From Kribbella turkmenica (GTDB lineage: Bacteria; Actinomycetota; Actinomycetes; Propionibacteriales; Kribbellaceae): a stretch of DNA of 64,000 bases. Numbering within the stretch: position 1 is the stretch's first letter; every line of letters begins with the position of its first letter. Both the position numbers and the translations under genes were made by a program. Of this stretch, positions 1-9,165 are shown in pieces. The stretch spans positions 1 through 64,000 of the forward strand of contig NZ_SMKR01000008.1 of the NCBI RefSeq assembly GCF_004348725.1, in the 5' to 3' direction. Below the pieces are notes generated by a model that saw only the letters and a program-made list of their open reading frames with translations, searched no databases and was not told where the DNA came from.

Positions 1-2
1 CA

Positions 3-155
3 CCGTTCTTCACCGCGCTGGACAGCTGGGTGAACCTGAACCTGGTGGAGACGCGGACGTTTCCCGGCGGCGTGGTCCTGACCAGGTACGAGACAAGACC
101 AGCGGCAAGATGCTTCGGCTCCGGGAGCCCTTGCGCGAGTCCGGTGGACGGGTGA
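3..155 (+). CDS. 3' end of a gene, probably RibD/DHFR-like reductase family (partial)
   Basis: An open frame runs in from the left edge and stops at 153-155. Its visible part includes LNLVETRTFPGGVVLTRYE, which resembles the last beta strands of RibD C-terminal/dihydrofolate-reductase-family proteins (LVETRTF followed by GVVLLRY). About 18 residues follow that do not look like the family, so the natural stop may have been lost. The family call rests on a short tail only. The rest of the gene lies outside the window. Confidence 0.4.
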   Translation, partial: PFFTALDSWVNLNLVETRTFPGGVVLTRYETRPAARCFGSGSPCASPVDG

Positions 156-233
156 GGTGGCGGCCGAAAGTCTCGCTGCCCCTGGACGCCGACGGCGGCT
201 CGGCGCACACTCCCTGGCATCGTGTAAGGGGTC

Positions 234-279
234 GACGCGGGCATCGACCTCAGGCTCCCGAGGCCTCGACGCCCGCGTC
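234..279. other. Inverted repeat in a gene-free stretch
   Basis: Arms GACGCGGGC (234-242) and GCCCGCGTC (271-279) flank a 28-nt loop that itself contains a shorter CCTC/GAGG stem. It lies between the end of the partial gene and the end of the SnoaL-like gene, so a bidirectional terminator is possible, but there is no T tract. Nothing else was recognised between 156 and 370. Confidence 0.35.
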
Positions 280-371
280 ACGACACCCGACAGCGCCGCG
301 CAGATGGCAGCTGCATGGTTCCGCGCTCGATTCGTTGCCACGGTCGTGCCCATATCGGCCAGCGGGCGCTC

Positions 372-409
372 TTTGGCATGAGCGCGCGGAATGCGGCAAG
401 TGCGTGCGG
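372..409 (+). repeat. Cassette-region repeat, copy 1
   Basis: Contains ATGAGCGCGCGGAATGCGG followed by CAAGTGCGTGCGG. It matches the second half of the shared repeat (GGCATGAGCGCGCGGA, then CGCGGCA). It lies just beyond the stop of the SnoaL-like gene, on the left border of the array. Confidence 0.6.
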
Positions 410-441
410 TTACCCCGCTGCCGTCGAGAGAGCTGGCATGG

Positions 442-885
442 TCAGGGCACCATTCCGAGCCGGGCGGCGACCCCGGTCGCGTCGAAGTACGACCGCTCCT
501 CGATGATCAGACCGTCGGGTGCGAGCCGCCAGAAGGTGCCCGACTCGAAGGAAATTGCTTGAGCCGTCGCGGGCAGCTCACCGCCCGGCATCTCCAGTGG
601 CCCGGCATTGACCCCGCTCACTCCCAGCTCGACGGCGACCCGGTCGCCGACCGCGATGGCAGGGCGAAGCTGCCGCCACTGCATGTCGGGGAACGCACGC
701 AGGACGCTCTTCTGCACGTTCTCGATGGCCCCCCGGCCCTTCGAGGGTTCCGGAAAGAACGGGTCGTAGATCACGCCGTCCTCGGCGAAGAGTGCGACCC
801 ACGCGTCCATGTCGCGGGCGTTGAAGGTGTCCACGTATCGGCGTGCCAGTTCCTCTCCCGTGGCTGCCAGGTGATCCTGCGTCAT
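442..885 (-). CDS. SnoaL-like / NTF2-fold protein
   Basis: The product is 147 aa, the usual size for SnoaL-like polyketide-cyclase-fold proteins. The N-terminal pattern LARRYVDTFNARDMDAWVAL, then DPFFPEP and KGRGAI, is the typical alpha helix and first strands of this NTF2-like fold. Members range from cyclases and isomerases to non-catalytic stress proteins, so no substrate is assigned. The ATG at 885 follows a GGAG with normal spacing and is preferred over an upstream in-frame ATG at 996. The gene diverges from a LuxR-type regulator at 990 across about 100 bp, which suggests the regulator may control it. Confidence 0.75.
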   Translation of the reverse strand: MTQDHLAATGEELARRYVDTFNARDMDAWVALFAEDGVIYDPFFPEPSKGRGAIENVQKSVLRAFPDMQWRQLRPAIAVGDRVAVELGVSGVNAGPLEMPGGELPATAQAISFESGTFWRLAPDGLIIEERSYFDATGVAARLGMVP

Positions 886-989
886 GATCGGCTCCGCTCG
901 TTCGTTGTGGTTGGTTCCTGATGGCCAGCGAACTCCAGCGCCGAGCGGTCCGCCATGCCATGATTCTGGTATCGGGGAGAGGAGGCGGC

Positions 990-2165
990 GTGCCACAGGT
1001 CAGGATCACAGCCGCCGGACGCCACGCAGAACAGGCGGCGCTGGCACGCATCCGTCGGTTGTCGTGTGCCGGCCTCGATGTCGCCGCGTTCGTCAACCAG
1101 ATGAACCCGATTGTGACCCAACGGGTCAGCAATGGAACGGCGACCATCGACAGCCCGTTCTGGTTCACGATCGACCCCGAGTCGCACCTCGTCACGAGCA
1201 TCTACGGCGAGGGCTGTGACATCGATCCGGGCGACTACATGCGGTGGGAGCTTCTCACCGACGACTTCATCAAGACCGCGGACGTCGTGCACAGCCCGCG
1301 CGGCGTCCTGACGTTGCACGAAGCCACGGGTGGCCATCCCGAGCGCAGCCCGATCTACGTCGAAGTCATGATTCCCCATGGCATGGCGCAAGAGCTCCTT
1401 GTCGCGCTGCGATCCGCCAACGGTGAGAACTGGGGTACGACGCGCCTGAATCGTGCACCGGGTGACCCGATGTTCTCGGAGCACGAAATCAGCTTCATGG
1501 CGGCCGCCGCGCCCTTGATCGCCGAGGGGGTCCGTCGGGGGCTGCTCGTCGGGGAGGCCACCGAACCGGAGCGACTGGACGCACCCGGACTGGTCGTCCT
1601 GACGGTCGGCGGCGAAGTGGAGTCAATGAGCCCTGGTGCGGAGGAATGGTTCTCGTTCCTGCCTGACGACGACGGCTGCCAGGACGGTGTGCCAACGAGT
1701 GTTCTCGCGGCCGCGGCCGCGGCGCTGCGAGAGGCCGAGGGCAGCGGCGCCGGGGGCGTCTCGGCGGTTCGGGTACCGATGACGAACGGACGCTGGGCCG
1801 ACGTCCAGGGTGCGGTCACAGGCGCAAACAAGGACTCGAAAGTCACGGTGATCATCCAGCAGGCTCACCCCAACCGCATCGCTCCACTGCTGATGTCGAT
1901 CTACGGCCTGACCGTGAGGGAACAGGAGGTGACCCAGCTAATCCTGCGGGGAGGATCCACCACCGATCTCGCTCACGCACTGTCGCTGTCCCCGCACACT
2001 GTGCAGCAGCACCTCAAGAGCATCTTCGAGAAGACCGCCGTCAACAGCCGCGGCGAACTGATCGCCAAGATCTACTTCGACTGCTACGACCTGCGCACCC
2101 ACGACAACCGTGACCGGATACAGGCCGAGCAGCCCATCCGCGGTGGCCCGAAGGTTTCCGCCTGA
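990..2165 (+). CDS. LuxR-family transcriptional regulator
   Basis: A 391-aa regulator with a C-terminal LuxR/FixJ helix-turn-helix at about residues 310-370 (GLTVREQEVTQLILRGGST, then LSLSPHTVQQHLKSIFEK). The remaining 300 residues show no receiver or Walker motif; a GAF/PAS-like sensory region is plausible but was not identified by motif. The GTG at 990 has GGAGG at 981-985; in-frame ATGs at 921 and 960 lack a clear ribosome site. The gene diverges from the SnoaL-like gene at 885. A copy of the region repeat starts about 13 nt after its stop. Confidence 0.75.
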   Translation: MPQVRITAAGRHAEQAALARIRRLSCAGLDVAAFVNQMNPIVTQRVSNGTATIDSPFWFTIDPESHLVTSIYGEGCDIDPGDYMRWELLTDDFIKTADVVHSPRGVLTLHEATGGHPERSPIYVEVMIPHGMAQELLVALRSANGENWGTTRLNRAPGDPMFSEHEISFMAAAAPLIAEGVRRGLLVGEATEPERLDAPGLVVLTVGGEVESMSPGAEEWFSFLPDDDGCQDGVPTSVLAAAAAALREAEGSGAGGVSAVRVPMTNGRWADVQGAVTGANKDSKVTVIIQQAHPNRIAPLLMSIYGLTVREQEVTQLILRGGSTTDLAHALSLSPHTVQQHLKSIFEKTAVNSRGELIAKIYFDCYDLRTHDNRDRIQAEQPIRGGPKVSA

Positions 2166-2177
2166 AGCACCGCGCGC

Positions 2178-2220
2178 GACCATCGGCACGAACGCGCGGA
2201 ACGCGGCAGATCCGTGCGAA
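2178..2220 (+). repeat. Cassette-region repeat, copy 2
   Basis: This near-complete copy reads CATCGGCACGAACGCGCGG followed by AACGCGGCAGATCCGTGCG. It lies 13 nt after the LuxR stop and 23 nt before the stop of the convergent gene ending at 2243. It is one of the best copies for a consensus. Confidence 0.7.
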
Positions 2221-2242
2221 CCGGGCGGGCCGCTCGGGTCAG

Positions 2243-2953
2243 TCAGCCGAGCGCCGCCGACGTACGCCCTGTGGAGTGGCAAACGGGGCACTGGAAGATG
2301 CCGAAAAGGTCCAGCAGCTGTTTGGCAACCTGCGGTCGCCGGTGGGTGGTTGCAAGGTCGTAGGCACGTGCCTCGCTACCTGTGAGCTGGCCTGGGTCGC
2401 ATGGCGCAACCGTCGTCTGTCCCACGGAACCGTCGCCGAACTGCTTGACGTGCGCGGCCGAGGTTTCGAAGCCGATGACGAGTTGCTCGTCGCAGCCGGG
2501 GCACGCGAATTCCAGCTCCTGATCCGCTAGGGCGTCTAGGCGCGTCGCCCATACAGAACCGCTTTCGGTTGCGAGGACGGCTTGTGCTCGGTAGATGAAG
2601 TCGGTGTCGTCGGCGGCAAGCGGCACCAGTCCCTCGGCCACTTCACGCAGCGTCCGGATCGTGTCGGCGTACCGGGTCCGAACGGCCGCTGGCTCCTCTG
2701 GGCCGTCGGTTGATGCCACGATGCAGGTGGCCAGAAAGAGGGGCTCGACGAAGCCGGACGGATCCTGGCGTGCCGCCAAGTCTGCCAGCCGGGGCAGCGC
2801 GGCGTAGCTGGCGCTGTAAACCGTGCCTTGGTGACAAAGCCGCGACCATAGTTCGTCCCAGATGGTGCGATCTTGCGTGTCGCCACGTCTAAGGAGCGCT
2901 TCGACGGGCCCGGCCGTGCCGTAGGCATCTCGAAGTGAGGTCCAACTCGTCAT
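2243..2953 (-). CDS. Unrecognised protein with two CxxC motifs
   Basis: A 236-aa protein of no function I can name. It begins MTSWTSLRDAYGTA, has a helix-rich middle, and carries two CxxC pairs in its C-terminal half (CPGC near residue 155 and CPVC near residue 223) that could form one split zinc-ribbon site. The ATG at 2953 is chosen because AGGA lies nine bases upstream; the ATG at 2962 overlaps that site. The gene occupies the module between repeat copies 2 and 3 and points against the neighbouring genes. Confidence 0.6.
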   Translation of the reverse strand: MTSWTSLRDAYGTAGPVEALLRRGDTQDRTIWDELWSRLCHQGTVYSASYAALPRLADLAARQDPSGFVEPLFLATCIVASTDGPEEPAAVRTRYADTIRTLREVAEGLVPLAADDTDFIYRAQAVLATESGSVWATRLDALADQELEFACPGCDEQLVIGFETSAAHVKQFGDGSVGQTTVAPCDPGQLTGSEARAYDLATTHRRPQVAKQLLDLFGIFQCPVCHSTGRTSAALG

Positions 2954-3014
2954 GCGGATCATCCTGACAGCGACTCGCCTCGCCCGACACCACACGCCGG
3001 CGAGGAGACGTCCT

Positions 3015-3060
3015 GAATTCGGCAGTTGACAGCGCGGATCGCGGCATGAGCGGACGGATA
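3015..3060 (+). repeat. Cassette-region repeat, copy 3
   Basis: Reads TTCGGCAGTTGACAGCGCGG, then ATCGCGGCATGAGCGGACGG. It carries both halves of the repeat, with the CGGCAGTTGA variant of the first box. It lies between the start of the gene at 2953 and the divergent methyltransferase start at 3150. Confidence 0.65.
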
Positions 3061-3149
3061 CTCCACGGGAAAAGCGGTGGTGACTGATTTGCCCTACTGA
3101 TGTACTGGCGTGCCACCGTGGGTCTGCCAAGTTGACGGAGGTGGTCGTT

Positions 3150-3905
3150 GTGACGGGCTATGACGCGCTTGCCGAGGTGTACGAGTGGCTTATCTCGGAC
3201 GCGAAGTTGACTCCCGCCGAGTTCGCGGCGGCGTTCGATGACGTCATCGGTCTGCTTCCGCCAAACGCTCACGTTCTCGATAGCTCATGCGGTACCGGGC
3301 AACTGGCTGTAGGTCTCGCTGGTCTCGGCATGCAGGTTGTCGCGAGCGACGCCAGCGCAGTGATGATTCGTCGGACTGAAAAGCTGGCTGTGGAGCTAGC
3401 TGCATCTTTACGGACAGTTCGAGCCGGCTGGCACGAGTTGCCCGACCATTTCGACGACGCCAGCTTCGACATGGTGTTCTGCGTCGGCAACTCCTTGCAC
3501 CATGCCGAGGGCGCGAGCGGCAGGTTGGCCGCACTGGAGTCGATGTCACGCCTACTGCGTCCTGGAGGACGCTTGGTTCTCACCTCCCGGACTTGGGAAC
3601 TCGTGCGCGCTGGCGGCTCCCGGCTGGACATCCGTGACCAACTGGTCCGCCGAAATGGCCGCGATGCCCTCGTCATATATCGCTGGGAGATTGCGCCGCA
3701 CTGGGAGCAGGAGCACCACATCGAGATTGCTGTCGCGCGAGTCGACGCGGATGGGTCGGTCCTTGTCCGCTCGGAACTGTTGTCGTGCTGGCCCTACCGA
3801 TACGACGAACTCGGTTCTGAGTTGCACAGCGTCGGACTAAGGGTCGAGAAGAGCACGTTCGACCCGGAGGTCGAGGGTTACATGGTGATCGCGACCAAGG
3901 CGTAG
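3150..3905 (+). CDS. Class I SAM-dependent methyltransferase
   Basis: A 251-aa methyltransferase. Motif I is VLDSSCGTGQLAVGLAGLG at about residues 45-63, the acidic end of the next strand is VVASDAS, and the post-motif II/III region is DMVFCVGNSLHH followed by LLRPGGRLVLTSR. The substrate cannot be read from the sequence. GTG at 3150 is taken as the start because GGAGG at 3136-3140 gives nine-base spacing; the upstream TTG at 3132 would place that site inside the gene. It is the only gene between repeat copies 3 and 4. Confidence 0.8.
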   Translation: MTGYDALAEVYEWLISDAKLTPAEFAAAFDDVIGLLPPNAHVLDSSCGTGQLAVGLAGLGMQVVASDASAVMIRRTEKLAVELAASLRTVRAGWHELPDHFDDASFDMVFCVGNSLHHAEGASGRLAALESMSRLLRPGGRLVLTSRTWELVRAGGSRLDIRDQLVRRNGRDALVIYRWEIAPHWEQEHHIEIAVARVDADGSVLVRSELLSCWPYRYDELGSELHSVGLRVEKSTFDPEVEGYMVIATKA

Positions 3906-3961
3906 GCACCGGCATGTAGTTACGCCAGGCCAGGCCGCGGTCACCGCCACCTTCGCGCACG

Positions 3962-4003
3962 CTCATCGGCTGAGCGGACGAGCGGACGAGCGGACGAGCG
4001 CCG
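3962..4003 (+). repeat. Cassette-region repeat copy 4 with GAGCGGAC tandem expansion
   Basis: CTCATCGGCTGAGCG is the start of the shared repeat. It is followed by 3.6 perfect copies of the 8-bp unit GAGCGGAC (3972-4000) in place of the usual second half. The tandem run looks like slippage within the repeat. From 4004 to 4147 nothing coding is apparent. Confidence 0.6.
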
Positions 4004-4147
4004 TACCCTCGGTTTCCTAGACGAGGGTGTCAACCATCAGGTGGCACCGAACCGTCAAGCATCAACTGGCAGACGACATGACACGGTGCGAGGAGCAAGT
4101 GTCCTCCGACGGTTGATGCGTGACACTCGTCCGCCACGTGATGTGCG

Positions 4148-4185
4148 ACAGTCGGAAGCCCGGATCGCGGCAGATCCGGAAGTTG
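4148..4185 (+). repeat. Cassette-region repeat, copy 5
   Basis: Core CGGATCGCGGCAGATCCGG (4161-4179) is a perfect CGGATC/GATCCG hairpin with a 6-nt GCGGCA loop, preceded by ACAGTCGGAAG. It lies about 105 bp upstream of the next start codon. Confidence 0.65.
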
Positions 4186-4290
4186 CTGCCTTGGTCCGAT
4201 GGGTTGAGGTTCGGTCTTGGATCTTGTAAATCATCGGCGTGCCTGTCATGCCAGGCTGGACAGTCCGGGAGCGTTGAGAACGGGAGCGAC

Positions 4291-4710
4291 ATGCTGGAAG
4301 ATCTGCACGCGGAGATTGCCCGACAGGGCGGGTATGACGATGGATCTGGACCGGAGCCTGTTGTCAGTCTGGAGCTGTTCTTCGACGGGAACGAAGATCC
4401 TGCATCGATTGGTTGCAACCTGTCGGACCACCCTGGCCCTGCGCGGTTCTACGAGGTTCTGAGCGCGATGCGGGACCGCCCCGAGGTTCACAGCGTCTGG
4501 GTAGGTGTCTCCGAGGTGATGGACCCAGACGATTGGCCCTTCAGCGATCACGTGTACGTCGTCACCACGGCCTCGCCGACCGATGTCGGGTCGTGGGCAG
4601 TCGCGCTCAGTCCGAACGCGCCAGGGGACGATTGGTGGAACGGTGCACCTCCGCTACAGCAGGTCGAAGTCCCACCTGACTCCCGCCTCGTTACTCTCTG
4701 GTGGGATTGA
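4291..4710 (+). CDS. Unrecognised small acidic protein
   Basis: A 139-aa acidic, Trp-rich protein with no signal peptide or membrane segment. It begins MLEDLHAEIARQGG, has SLELFFDGNED near residue 30, and ends in a PPLQQVEVPP...LVTLWWD tail. The size and composition suit a cytoplasmic immunity or stress protein, but I do not recognise the family. The ATG at 4291 follows GGGAG with good spacing. It is the only gene between repeat copies 5 and 6. Confidence 0.55.
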   Translation: MLEDLHAEIARQGGYDDGSGPEPVVSLELFFDGNEDPASIGCNLSDHPGPARFYEVLSAMRDRPEVHSVWVGVSEVMDPDDWPFSDHVYVVTTASPTDVGSWAVALSPNAPGDDWWNGAPPLQQVEVPPDSRLVTLWWD

Positions 4711-4841
4711 GCCAAGGTATGAGGTGCTCGCTGACCTCGGCGTGATCGTGCGCGTCGCAGCAGATCCTGCAGAACGAACCACGATTCTCGCGGCCAGCTC
4801 GCCGAAACGATCGAAGGAGTCGACACTCGCCCCGGAGCACT

Positions 4842-4880
4842 GACATCGGCAGTTGAGCGCACTGTCGGCGGCAAATCCAG
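4842..4880 (+). repeat. Cassette-region repeat, copy 6 (diverged)
   Basis: GACATCGGCAGTTGAGCGC is a clear first half. The second half is only approximate (CTGTCGGCGGCAAATCC). It lies 132 bp after the preceding stop and ends about 37 bp before the next start. Confidence 0.55.
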
Positions 4881-4916
4881 ACGTGACGCGTGCACCGATT
4901 GGGCAGGATCGGCTAG

Positions 4917-5291
4917 GTGCTGATCAAGGTACTGACGGTTCATGACGACGAACCGGCGATCGTGGAATGTGAGACGCCGGTGGGCAATCTGACAGCGCGG
5001 TGGCGGGGTGAGGAGCTTCCAAGCGCTGACGAGACCCACGATGTGGAGGTGGAGACTGTCGGCCCCCTGGTCTGGGGCGAGAACCTTAAGGTCTCCGCCG
5101 GATTTGCGCGAACAGAGGATGAGACGTCATTGATCGGCCTGGTCGAGGACGTCGAGGGTGCTGTAGTCACGCTACGAGTGAGCGACTCCATCCTTCTTCT
5201 TGAGGCAGATGGGGAACCGCCCCTTGGCGTTCTCGGCAAGATGGCCTCGGTGCGACCGCGTGAGTTCGAACTTTGGCCAACAGGTATCTGA
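4917..5291 (+). CDS. Unrecognised small beta-rich protein
   Basis: A 124-aa protein starting with GTG (VLIKVLTVHDDEP). It is acidic and made of alternating hydrophobic strands (AIVECETPVGNLTARWRGEE and later GAVVTLRVSDSILLLE), which suggests a small beta barrel or immunity-protein-like fold. No family recognised. GGCAGGA at about 4903 gives a suitable ribosome site. Its stop is nine bases before repeat copy 7, the tightest gene-repeat spacing in the region. Confidence 0.55.
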   Translation: MLIKVLTVHDDEPAIVECETPVGNLTARWRGEELPSADETHDVEVETVGPLVWGENLKVSAGFARTEDETSLIGLVEDVEGAVVTLRVSDSILLLEADGEPPLGVLGKMASVRPREFELWPTGI

Positions 5292-5299
5292 GCACGCCC

Positions 5300-5340
5300 T
5301 GACATCGGCATGAGCGCGCGCGGACAGCGGCATGAGAGGA
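5300..5340 (+). repeat. Cassette-region repeat, copy 7
   Basis: TGACATCGGCATGAGCGCG is followed by CGCGGACAGCGGCATGAGAGG. The first half is perfect and the CGGCATGAG box occurs twice. It directly follows the stop at 5291. Confidence 0.65.
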
Positions 5341-5400
5341 CGTGACGGATCGCCCCCGGGGTGGTTGTGCCAACGTCAGCCAATCCATGATGCTTCCGGC

Positions 5401-5916
5401 ATGAGCGACGAACTACCGCGGTTTCCATACCACCCCGACCCTGTCGCCACGGGATCTGTTGTTGAATCTGCGGAGGTGTGCGAGCGATGCGGTAAGGCTC
5501 GTGGGTTCGTGTACGCCGGCCCGGTGTACGCCGTCGAGGAGGTCGAGTTCCTCTGTCCGTGGTGCATTGCGGATGGGAGCGCTGCCGATCAGTTCGATGC
5601 GGACTTCACGACGGCGGATGGCGCGCCGAGTGACGTACCGGCGGCGGTCCTGGAGGAGATCGTGCGTCGGACTCCGGGCTTCGCGGGGTGGCAGCAGGAA
5701 CGCTGGATGTTCCACTGCGCCGACGGCGCGGAGTTCCTCGGTCGAGCTGGCTGGGAAGAGGTGTCAGCGTTGCCTGGCGCGGTGGAGTCGCTCCGCTTGG
5801 ACGGAGGTTGGGACGACGCGGCGATGCGGAACCTTAGTGCTGACGGAGACCTGACGGGTTACCTCTTCCGTTGTCGCCATTGCGGGCTTGGGCTGGCGTA
5901 CGCGGACTGCACGTAG
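5401..5916 (+). CDS. CbrC / UPF0167 family protein
   Basis: A 171-aa protein with the hallmarks of CbrC/UPF0167: LPRFPYHPDPVATGS at the N terminus, CERCGKARGFVYAGPVYA, CPWCIADGSAA, and a final CRHCG pair. The conserved Cys pairs suggest metal binding. In E. coli, cbrC is linked to colicin E2 tolerance, but the biochemical role is unknown. The ATG at 5401 gives the canonical N terminus; the ribosome site is weak. It lies alone between repeat copies 7 and 8. Confidence 0.8.
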   Translation: MSDELPRFPYHPDPVATGSVVESAEVCERCGKARGFVYAGPVYAVEEVEFLCPWCIADGSAADQFDADFTTADGAPSDVPAAVLEEIVRRTPGFAGWQQERWMFHCADGAEFLGRAGWEEVSALPGAVESLRLDGGWDDAAMRNLSADGDLTGYLFRCRHCGLGLAYADCT

Positions 5917-5991
5917 TGCAGCCTGCTCCCCTGAGCTGGCTTGCCGTCGGCTTCGACGGTGGCTCCGGTGGGCAGCGCATCCAAGCGTCAC

Positions 5992-6038
5992 CTCACATCG
6001 GCAGTTCCGAGCTTCACGATCAGCGGCAGATGAGGGCG
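5992..6038 (+). repeat. Cassette-region repeat, copy 8 (diverged)
   Basis: TCACATCGGCAGTTCCGAGC followed by TTCACGATCAGCGGCAGATG. Both boxes are recognisable with an altered middle. It ends about 7 nt before the stop of the minus-strand ankyrin gene. Confidence 0.5.
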
Positions 6039-6044
6039 TTGGAT

Positions 6045-6362
6045 CTACGCTTCCCGCGCAGGGAAGGCTTCCATCAGAGAGACCGCAAGCCAGTGGCCAC
6101 CGAGCAAAGCCATGTGGAGAGCAGAGCCCACCCCGCCGCCTACAGGCGATGCAAGTGGATCTGCGCCTCGGGCGAGGAGGTACGCCGTGACGTCGACGTG
6201 AAGCGGTTCGCCGGTCTGAGTGTGTCCATCGATTTCGACATCGACCGCGTGCTGGAGCAAGGTCAGACCGCCATCGATCTCTTCGACGTCGACACCGCCA
6301 TCGAGCAGCTCCCGCAGCCTCGGCAGGTCCTCGTTCTCGACGGCAAGATGTGCAGGTGTCAT
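6045..6362 (-). CDS. Small ankyrin-repeat protein
   Basis: A 105-aa protein with about three ankyrin-type units: TPAHLAVENEDLPRLRELLD, then GLTLLQHAVDVEID, then VTAYLLARGADPLA and ALHMALLGGHWLAVSLME. Such units mediate protein-protein contacts; no enzymatic motif is present. An AGGAAGGG site precedes the ATG at 6362. It occupies the module between repeat copies 8 and 9 and points left. Confidence 0.7.
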   Translation of the reverse strand: MTPAHLAVENEDLPRLRELLDGGVDVEEIDGGLTLLQHAVDVEIDGHTQTGEPLHVDVTAYLLARGADPLASPVGGGVGSALHMALLGGHWLAVSLMEAFPAREA

Positions 6363-6439
6363 AACCCTTCCTCAGGTTGGCGCCGAAGTGGTATCTGCCT
6401 AACACACTTGGACGACGTTCGCCGCGGTAGTCGCGGCCT

Positions 6440-6478
6440 TGTCGGACGCCTCTGTCCCGATCGCGGCAGATCCGTGCG
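6440..6478 (+). repeat. Cassette-region repeat, copy 9
   Basis: TTGTCGGACGCCTCTG then CCGATCGCGGCAGATCCGTG. The second half is intact and the first is diverged. It lies between the ankyrin gene start and the stop of the next minus-strand gene. Confidence 0.6.
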
Positions 6479-6494
6479 TCGCACTGGCAAAGGC

Positions 6495-6917
6495 CTACCT
6501 GCGACGGAAGAACCATCGTCGGGGCGAGGACGCATGAGCCGGCGCTGAGACTACTGCTGGGATGCCTGCCGGTGAGTAGACCTCTTCCTGCTCCTGGTCG
6601 TACAGGACGATTCCGCGACGTCTGGCGACCTCGGTGCAGTACGGGATCGACTCGCTCAGCGAACGTAGGCCAAGCGAGAAGACAAACAGCGGCCCGGAGG
6701 CGTTGGCGATCAGCGGACCATCCGCCCACGGAGAGTCCTCGCTCCGGTCTTCTGTGATGTCGGGCCACCGAGCAAGCAACTCCTCGACGTAGCCACGGAT
6801 CGCGTCTGTCGGTGGGTCGTCCTCGCTAACCGAGGACTCCAACTCCTCGAAAATCCGCGCAGCGTCGTCGGCGCTGGCCGGCACCGGCCCATCCCAAGCC
6901 ACCAGAACCCATGACAT
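6495..6917 (-). CDS. Unrecognised protein of the MSYDLxVWxG-like actinobacterial type
   Basis: A 140-aa acidic protein beginning MSWVLVAWDGPVPASADDAA. This resembles a widespread uncharacterised actinobacterial group that starts MSYDLAVWEG; the resemblance is from memory and not verified. No motif, signal or membrane segment is visible. The start at 6917 is chosen from that N-terminal pattern; ATG at 6941 is an alternative, and neither has a strong ribosome site. It lies between repeat copies 9 and 10. Confidence 0.5.
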   Translation of the reverse strand: MSWVLVAWDGPVPASADDAARIFEELESSVSEDDPPTDAIRGYVEELLARWPDITEDRSEDSPWADGPLIANASGPLFVFSLGLRSLSESIPYCTEVARRRGIVLYDQEQEEVYSPAGIPAVVSAPAHASSPRRWFFRRR

Positions 6918-6957
6918 GACCAAGCATGCTAGAGCATCCATCGTGAACCGGCCTCGA

Positions 6958-6991
6958 CCCGGTATGAGCGCGCGGAACGCGGCAGAAGCGG
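6958..6991 (+). repeat. Cassette-region repeat, copy 10
   Basis: GGTATGAGCGCGCGGAACGC followed by GGCAGAAGCGGG. The first box is lost apart from GGTATGAG and the second half is intact. It is positioned between the minus-strand gene at 6917 and the macro-domain pseudogene at 7019. Confidence 0.65.
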
Positions 6992-7018
6992 GCGTTCTGA
7001 GCGTCGTAGCATCGGGCC

Positions 7019-7623
7019 ATGAGCGATGATCGTGAGCGGCCCACGCTCCTCTTGGTCGACCTCGATAAGTCACTTGCCGACACTGGCGAACAGCCTTCGC
7101 TGAGTGGTCCGCGCGTGTGAAGGTCAGCACTGCACCCATCGACTCGGTCCTTGGTGAAGTCGACGCCGTCATCACCGCCGGCAACAGCTACGGCGAGATG
7201 AGCGGAGGGGTCGATCGCGCGGTCGCCGCAGCACTCCCCGGGGTCCAGCGCGCCGTCTGGGCACACATGGCAGAGCGCCACCTCGGCTACCAGCCGGTCG
7301 GAACCGCTGATGTGGTGCCGACGGGATACGACAAATGTCGTTGGCTCGTGTACGCGCCGACCATGCGCGTCCCAAGGCCGTTAACGCATGGTCGCGATAT
7401 CGCCGTGCACGACGCGTTCTGGGCGGAGTTGGTGGCGATCAGCAGACACAACGCGAACAGTGAGGCCGACCGGATCTCCGCCGTGGCCTGCCCGGGCTTC
7501 GGCACTGGTTACGGTTAAGTTCGCCCGGAGCGTGCAGCGGAACTGATGGCGACCGCCTACCGCTTCTGGCTTGCCCCGGCCGGAGTCCGGATCGCAGCAC
7601 GAGAAGCACTCCTGCAGAGCTGA
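7019..7623 (+). pseudogene. Macro-domain (ADP-ribose-binding) protein, frameshift plus nonsense
   Basis: Conceptual translation gives a macro domain: VDAVITAGNSYGEMSGGVDRA, then APTMRVP and ACPGFGTGYG. Two lesions are visible. First, a one-base loss at about 7082-7084: the N-terminal frame from ATG 7019 (MSDDRERPTLLLVDLDKS) reaches a stop at 7118, whereas shifting one base restores W-R-T-A-F-A-E-W-S-A-R-V-K straight into the domain. Second, TAA at 7516-7518 right after GTGYG, beyond which the same frame continues VRPERAAELMATAYRFW to a stop at 7621. Macro domains bind or hydrolyse ADP-ribose conjugates. The intact downstream frame could at best give a truncated 133-aa protein from GTG 7117. 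Confidence 0.7.
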
Positions 7624-7643
7624 GGACCTGCCAACACACAACC

Positions 7644-7682
7644 GCTGATCGGCTGACAGCACCGGATCGCGGCAGATCCGGT
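7644..7682 (+). repeat. Cassette-region repeat, copy 11
   Basis: CTGATCGGCTGACAGCAC then CGGATCGCGGCAGATCCGG. Both halves are present and the second is the perfect 6-bp-arm hairpin also seen in copy 5. It lies 20 bp after the macro pseudogene. It is the last clear copy in the window. Confidence 0.65.
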
Positions 7683-7832
7683 AAACGGCTGATTCACCCG
7701 ACACTGTGGCACTTCCGTCAACGCGTGCCGCAGTACCGACGCTCCTACTCGCCGCCATCGCAACGACCCACACCCCTCGCGGCGTAACAGCAAATTGCCG
7801 TCCGCGGCGTGCTCGACAGGTGCCGCCCACAG

Positions 7833-8265
7833 TCAAACTCCCCGCGAACCATTGCTGATCTGGTCGCATGGCCCACGGGTGAGCTCGTCGATCACCGCGA
7901 CCCCGGCAGAATCGACTTCGAGCCGTCCATCACCACCGCTTTCGGGAAGCTGGGCCTCGACCGCAGCGACGATGTCGGGGAACCGGTCGCTGATGTCGTT
8001 GCGGTTGCGGGTCCACAGCCGCGCCTTCGCACCGCGCACCACGGCGACGCGCTAGTTGACTGAACTCTTCAGCGGTGTTCACCCGCTGCTGCAGCGGTCC
8101 GAAGTCCATCCGCTCATCGGCGGCAGCAAGGGGCATGGGTACCACTCCGAGGACCAAATCCTCGGCCAGCTGATCGAGGACGGGATCGAATCCTGCCGGA
8201 TCACGGATCTCAGAACGGTCCCCTTGCACGTTTGCGCCAGAAGGCTTGGCTCGGAAGCGCCGCAA
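7833..8265 (-). pseudogene. Decayed fragment, possibly from an ATP-dependent DNA ligase
   Basis: On the minus strand, GAKARLWTRNRNDISDRFPD followed by IVAAVEAQLP resembles the nucleotidyltransferase core of ATP-dependent (LigC/LigD-type) ligases (SRNGNDLTDRFPEI). A neighbouring frame reads RMDFGPLQQRV, like ligase motif FGALQRR, but it comes before the first fragment instead of after it. No start, no lysine active-site motif and several frame breaks are present. The rest of 7683-8440 shows no convincing gene. Confidence 0.3.
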
Positions 8266-8440
8266 GCCCGACTCAGTTGGTCGGTTCCCTATGGCGGTGC
8301 AGGCAGAATCGGTGGGCTGGCAACGCGGTCAGTCTCGACAGCGCGCTATGTCGAGAGACGGAGTCTGGCGATCGTCGCCCGCGGCGGGCCAAGTATCTGT
8401 CGATCGAGTCTGAATCGATGCCGTGGGGTCGAGGCGAGCG

Positions 8441-8929
8441 TCACTCGCCTCGGACGCCGTCGATGCGTTCACGGATGATGTCTGCGTGGCCGTTGTGGCG
8501 GGCGTATTCCTGGAGCACCTTGAGCACGTAAACCCGCACCGGGTACTTCCCGGACGGCCCGAGTGCCGACAGGTCGTCGTACCGGCCGAGGATGGCGTCG
8601 GCCTCGGCCCGCTCGTCGCCCCAGCGTGCCATTGAGTCGCCCACCATCGAGGCGTCGAGACGCTCGATGTCGGCATCCTCGTCATCATCTGTGTAGACGA
8701 AACCAGTGTTTCGTCCGCTCAGTTCGTTGACGAGGTAGTCCCGCTCGATCTCGGTGAGGTGCCGGACCAATCCGAGCAGCGTCAGGGACGACGGTGGAGC
8801 CGACGCCGTAACAAGCTGTGCCGCGGTCAGGCCCTCGCACTTGGCGGCCAGCGCATCCCGGTGGAACGCCAGCCAGCCGAGCACAGCTCCGGTCTCATCA
8901 AGCGCCTCAGGCTCCGGTGACCTCTCCAT
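8441..8929 (-). CDS. DUF664 / DinB-superfamily protein
   Basis: A 162-aa protein with the actinobacterial DUF664 signature: LGWLAFHRDALAAKCEGL near the N terminus, TLLGLVRHLTEIERDYLVNE in the middle and VLQEYARHNGHADIIRERIDG at the end. The first helix (HRDA) and the two histidine motifs (RHLTEIE; EYARHNGHAD) are the expected metal ligands of the DinB four-helix bundle. Members include mycothiol- or bacillithiol-dependent enzymes, but no reaction is assigned. The ATG at 8929 gives a typical length; the upstream extension is unlike the family. Confidence 0.8.
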   Translation of the reverse strand: MERSPEPEALDETGAVLGWLAFHRDALAAKCEGLTAAQLVTASAPPSSLTLLGLVRHLTEIERDYLVNELSGRNTGFVYTDDDEDADIERLDASMVGDSMARWGDERAEADAILGRYDDLSALGPSGKYPVRVYVLKVLQEYARHNGHADIIRERIDGVRGE

Positions 8930-9165
8930 CGGCCCATTGTGTACGCCACCCGGGTACGAAGCCATCAGTCGAGCGAATCTGGCCAATCCGCCGACCACCC
9001 CGACTCCGAGGCCGCGCGCTTGCCCGCGCCGAGCCGTTCCATACAACGACGCATCCTGCCGAAATTCATGGTCGTCGCGCGATTTCTGCTGCGTACACGG
9101 TTCTGACGACGGCTGGCTGCCCCCTGAGATGGTGTAAGTCCGTGGCCTACTCGACGCGCTCAGGG

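Follow-up and report, generated by a model that had tools for sequence, protein, structure and literature searches.

A repeat-bounded gene array at the start of the contig

The window (the whole 64-kb stretch of DNA analysed here) is the start of its contig and contains a series of small genes separated by short repeats between positions 364 and 7686. The repeats were located with a 27-bp PWM that had been refined on copies from other Kribbella genomes, at a threshold of at least 10 bits. This resulted in 17 matches, all of them within 364–7686 and all on the forward strand. Outside this segment the 64-kb window gave no match, and the reversed window used as a control gave one. Pattern scans of the repeats yielded 3 or 4 matches, a number reached in 0 of 100 shuffles. 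The PWM match at 4728 (14 bits) lies inside a cassette; it is doubtful and may be due to chance.

The array opens with a doublet of putative recombination sites at 364–410 (units 364–390 and 384–410, forward strand as all sites; 16.4 and 26.2 bits). According to our cassette gene calling, the first cassette (442–2165) comprises a small gene on the reverse strand (442–885) and a regulator-like open reading frame on the forward strand (921–2165). The doublet at 2174–2220 (11.9 and 26.9 bits) forms the left border of a cassette (2206–3044) common to two other Kribbella genomes, G008 (88%) and G007 (85%), with unrelated flanks. It encodes a CxxC protein on the reverse strand (2243–2962). The next doublet (3010–3058, 10.8 and 27.6 bits) is followed by a class I methyltransferase gene on the forward strand (3132–3905; Pfam Methyltransf_25, 7.9e-17), with a homologous block in G036 (80%). 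Two IS481-type terminal repeats are located back to back, 21 bp apart. The first (4028–4078, read inward on the reverse strand, END PWM 53.6 bits) closes the left unit, and the second (4100–4150, forward, 68.0 bits) opens another unit. A site at 4158–4184 (29.0 bits) adjoins the latter.

In this second unit, two genes on the forward strand code for proteins of 139 aa (4291–4710) and 124 aa (4917–5291) that match no Pfam family; they are followed by doublets at 4837–4885 (21.8 and 16.0 bits) and 5296–5344 (24.9 and 28.2 bits), respectively. The sixth cassette gene (5401–5916, forward) encodes a UPF0167/CbrC-like protein (Pfam, 5.7e-56) and precedes a doublet with 25-bp spacing (5989–6040, 18.6 and 25.9 bits). 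Cassette 7 (6026–6466) carries an ankyrin-repeat gene on the reverse strand (6045–6362) and is common to G027 (89%) and G015 (86%). Between a single site (6454–6480, 25.4 bits) and a site at 6970–6996 (29.2 bits), the left unit of which is degenerate (at about 6950), lies an unknown gene without Pfam match (6495–6941, reverse). The ninth cassette is an interrupted macro-domain gene (7117–7518, forward; Pfam Macro, 2.9e-05), and the last site of the array is found at 7660–7686 (15.8 bits). Pfam thus confirmed the methyltransferase, the UPF0167/CbrC protein, the ankyrin and the macro domain named in the initial annotation, and left three proteins without a family. No RNA families were found in positions 1–9000. 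The contig begins inside a gene whose 3' part (1–225) is also present in locus L045 (99% identity over 97 bp to L045 1470–1566).

All eleven places at which the initial annotation had reported a repeat carry one in the forward orientation, ten of them as PWM matches and the one at 3962 as a degenerate half only. Its description as a degenerate repeat of 35–45 bp was right in that the repeat is real, but the basic unit is only about 28–30 bp long and usually occurs as two overlapping copies. The units of a doublet are mostly spaced by 20, 22 or 25 bp, in the window and beyond, and this accounts for the longer repeat seen at first. The parts CATCGGC-ATGAGCG and CAGTTGA belong to the left unit of the doublet. 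In several of the doublets between 364 and 6040, the second core is the core used. Dispersal over the genome in both orientations, as for REP or MITE elements, would have refuted the cassette reading. We rejected it, because the strong matches in the 7.4-Mb host genome are located at this array.

Site structure and point of exchange

The site (about 28–30 bp) is composed of short inverted arms flanking an asymmetric core, NNKCGGCA. Over 253 distinct units CGGCA is near-invariant and is preceded by G or T; the arms contain conserved C and G residues at symmetrical distances. The palindromic arms gave the early impression of a hairpin-based site. This was discarded since the arms do not covary: within a copy 3.60 of 7 pairs are complementary, compared with 3.73 (s.d. 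0.06) for arms dealt at random. Hence, nothing suggests a folded hairpin as the substrate.

Over all fetched arrays, 13.1% of the homology-block ends fall at most 10 bp from a core, versus 1.8% in shifted controls. The former value includes pairs with only the recombinase gene in common, which dilute it. Core-aligned pairs that have the right-hand cassette in common (n = 23) resemble each other beginning with the core, and their similarity before it is close to background. In pairs with the left-hand cassette in common (n = 14), the similarity extends to about 6 bp before the centre and declines after the core. The identity of shared blocks switches across the site core. As the pairs are few and some doublets are out of register, the exchange point can be placed only within about 8 bp. 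Judged from these alignments, the repeats are recombination sites with a central exchange; no recombination was observed.

Cassettes shared among Kribbella arrays

The segments 2206–3044, 6026–6466 and part of 3044–4170 of the window recur in other Kribbella beside different neighbours. Arrays that are unrelated in other respects have single cassettes in common, and their homology breaks off at the core; in L041, three consecutive cassettes are each common to a different genome. A strict pair of occupied and empty sites with both flanks conserved was not found among the fetched loci. Relatives that keep the gene order without the repeats, which would have contradicted cassette capture, were not encountered either.

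In 30 clusters of at least 4 sites across Kribbella arrays, 230 of 230 sites point in the direction of their cluster. The 175 cassettes have a median length of 776 bp, and exactly one gene was called in 109 of them by a simple procedure based on codon usage. Ninety cassette genes point with the sites and 109 against them. The combination of fixed repeats and freely oriented genes that had been noticed in the window was therefore borne out. The cargo consists of acetyltransferases, DinB/mycothiol transferases, glyoxalases, methyltransferases and unknown families, and arrays in other genera carry toxin-antitoxin modules. Two loci of one assembly (L084 and L085 in G012, on two contigs) have 19,980 identical bases, perhaps representing a chromosome-end repeat or an assembly duplicate.

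The array-borne tyrosine recombinase

A tyrosine recombinase of about 307–322 aa is located between two sites in K. pratensis. Of 38 Kribbella genomes, 4 carry it inside arrays, among them the three with the highest numbers of sites (45, 38 and 36; permutation p 0.0001), although this co-occurrence rests on four genomes only. The protein fulfils the criteria for a tyrosine recombinase, with a Phage_integrase domain (PF00589, 3.6e-24) and aligned R-K-H-R-H-Y residues. Outside Kribbella, most copies retain the full catalytic set. Within the genus, three of the four copies are broken or catalytically altered, and the one of K. antiqua has Asp in place of the nucleophilic Tyr; the recombinase of K. 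pratensis VKM Ac-2574 is intact. The genome of the window does not contain the recombinase. The initial annotation, which had noted that no integrase gene was visible, could not have seen it for this reason. The array in the window therefore probably depends on supply in trans, and genomes with sites but without recombinase need such a supply or past activity, which counts against the mechanism proposed below.

In a scan of 84,980 species the recombinase was found in Knoellia, Humibacillus, Terrabacter, Nocardioides, Actinopolymorpha and Nostocoides. Nearly all of these copies are surrounded by sites, with the exceptions of L141 (none) and L143 (one). The loci fetched by the recombinase, mostly from other genera and out of sample for the PWM, gave 118 matches of at least 14 bits versus 0 in the reversed control. 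An independent class-wide sample of 395 genomes, likewise out of sample, gave 115 such matches versus 3 in the control. Among the fetched homologues, all ten with at least 63% identity have sites, whereas none of the ten below 57% has more than stray single matches. In a midpoint-rooted tree, which is disturbed by degraded rows, the relatives without sites form one fully supported clade. In 20 of 22 loci, sites occur on either side of the gene, from which we infer that it is itself carried like a cassette. A site follows its stop codon at a distance of 2–21 bp in 12 of 22 loci, and in 158 of 175 cases the orientation of the sites is opposite to that of the gene.

It is conceivable that the sites are recombined by the XerC/XerD proteins of the host, as for the pdif modules of Acinetobacter, and that the array-borne recombinase is cargo only. 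The size of the site would fit a Xer-type site with arms of about 11 bp, XerC/D-like recombinases are present in all 11 genomes searched, and the array recombinase is often missing where sites are present. Nevertheless, we consider this explanation unlikely. In several bacterial families, the linkage to sites coincides with the limits of a single recombinase subfamily, and it is absent from the clade of relatives described above. Furthermore, the sites are one-way, unlike pdif sites, which are inversely oriented as far as the title of a study by Blackwell and Hall (2017, in the reference list of PMC6449649) indicates. That yet another tyrosine recombinase acts on the sites could also be envisaged.

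The integron-integrase model TIGR02249 scores the recombinase with 55.3 bits at a cut-off of 265. Its best model match is an Xer subfamily (117 bits, also below the cut-off of that model), and among solved structures XerD is the closest to it in sequence. By these comparisons it is an Xer-like tyrosine recombinase and not an IntI. An attC/IntI integron was rejected on these scores together with the missing complementarity and covariation of the arms and the central exchange. The same results render it hardly credible that the array is an ordinary integron remnant, i.e. attC sites without an integrase (CALIN). Such a remnant would have the same layout of one-way sites and single small genes, with GNAT, glyoxalase and toxin-antitoxin cargo, but neither the exchange in the centre of a site of about 28 bp nor the free direction of the genes agrees with it.

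The bulk of the recombinase's phage relatives are integrases of temperate phages of Arthrobacter and Gordonia. Among the matches listed, the best phage integrase has 46–47% identity over 93%. Phage Isolde has no matching sites near its int gene. The recombinase was not found in viral contigs, and plasmids gave only distant relatives (38–43%).

IS481-type ends around array-bearing units

Many Kribbella arrays are bounded by inverted repeats of about 50 bp starting with TGT (55 matches versus 0 in reversed sequence; the END PWM was refined on the same loci in which it was counted). Target duplications of about 15 bp are present at ten units and are exact in L042 (16 bp), L048, L049 and L095 (15 bp) and L054 (14 bp), and random pairs did not reach a duplication score of 9 in any of 20,000 trials. 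An element of 1.4 kb, L044, encodes an IS481-type transposase and has related ends and a 14/15 duplication. Some members of the IS481 family are known to have TGT...ACA ends and to duplicate about 15 bp of the target (PMC10045372). Loci related to the window fulfil this criterion; in the window itself the two ends alone are visible, without a duplication that could be compared. Tn7/Tn402-type ends were considered as well and dropped in favour of an IS481-like assignment on account of the duplications and the transposase match. Unlike IS481 elements, the array-bearing units carry cassettes, and no transposase was identified in them (the units were not exhaustively annotated). That whole units were transposed via these ends, with a transposase acting in trans, is inferred.

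The repeats might then be parts of IS481-type transposons or MITEs, and cassettes might be shared by transposition or homologous recombination only. The enclosure of so many Kribbella arrays between such ends and target duplications would suit this explanation. However, the ends flank whole units and not single cassettes, and the breaks fall in the site core. The large arrays L051, L052, L055 and L090 have no such ends nearby, and the arrays of other genera mostly lack them. We therefore regard transposition alone as very improbable.

A site followed by about 105 conserved bp closes many Kribbella arrays. We no longer interpret this tail as an attI beside the recombinase, because it does not adjoin the recombinase gene and is the array side of the IS481-type end.

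Proposed mechanism and comparison with known systems

Based on these results we consider it very probable that the window contains a gene-cassette array built by site-specific recombination with a dedicated Xer-like tyrosine recombinase. The sharing of modules with breakpoints at the core, the fixed sites with free genes and the presence of the recombinase in such arrays elsewhere lend support to the cassette capture proposed initially. A cassette would be delimited by copies of the site and usually contain one gene, which may point in either direction. Two sites would be cleaved in their cores by the recombinase and the strands exchanged, so that a cassette is excised as a circle or inserted at another site. 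The asymmetry of the core would keep all sites in one orientation and leave the genes free to point either way. The recombinase gene may itself move like a cassette, and many Kribbella arrays lie inside IS481-type-ended units that would have transposed as wholes. The sites, their orientation, the exchange of single cassettes at the core, the linkage of recombinase and sites and the target duplications are demonstrated at the sequence level. We infer that the recombinase acts as the catalyst, that the intermediate is circular and the substrate double-stranded, and that the IS481 transposase is provided in trans.

The analogy to integrons drawn in the initial annotation holds for the way in which the array works, but not for family membership. 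As in integrons, the cassettes mostly contain a single gene, the one-orientation criterion is met, a tyrosine recombinase is associated with the arrays, these are sometimes found on a transposon, and the cargo includes GNAT, glyoxalase, toxin-antitoxin and unknown genes. In contrast to integrons, the recombinase is Xer-like and scores far lower than the cut-off for IntI, its gene lies between sites, the site is short with central exchange and without arm covariation, and the genes point either way. The array resembles the pdif modules of Acinetobacter in that short Xer-type sites bound small gene modules. The pdif criterion of inversely oriented sites around a module is not met, as the array sites are all direct, and a dedicated recombinase travels with them, whereas pdif recombination is attributed to host XerC/XerD.

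We tend to view the array as part of a cassette-capture system of Actinomycetota that arose independently and possesses a recombinase subfamily of its own, a double-stranded site, a mobile recombinase cassette and arrays hitch-hiking on IS481-type transposition. Such a system would correspond to the integron in function without descending from IntI/attC. No earlier description was found in the open-access literature; one may nevertheless exist in a subscription journal, and novelty is graded cautiously for this reason. Integrons are described as essentially absent from Actinobacteria, in which no complete one was reported with IntegronFinder 2.0 (PMC9024848), so that it stays a question by what means actinomycetes of the soil reshuffle their small adaptive genes. 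One testable answer is a dedicated recombinase together with its defined site of about 28 bp, which also provides a marker for surveying cassette pools. The array appears to let genes swap between strains in bacteria thought to be without integrons, and constitutes an independent case for asking which integron features are essential.

Further features of recombinase-bearing loci

Two genomes of another family have tandem arrays of 17–19 near-identical 34-bp units, with one site per unit, in the vicinity of the recombinase (L177 14813–15396 and L183 12817–13451). In L179 (137–5955), and also in L176 and L135, the sites on the two sides of the recombinase are oppositely directed; the gene could thus be inverted rather than excised. 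Small co-directional genes, some of them encoding RHH or HicB domains, just follow the recombinase in L131 (10910–11499) and L132 (10948–11432) and are possibly a stabilising antitoxin-like pair. L103 (G007:C39:35765–41482) contains six consecutive tyrosine-recombinase domain matches on the same strand, an arrangement that recalls recombinase-trio elements.
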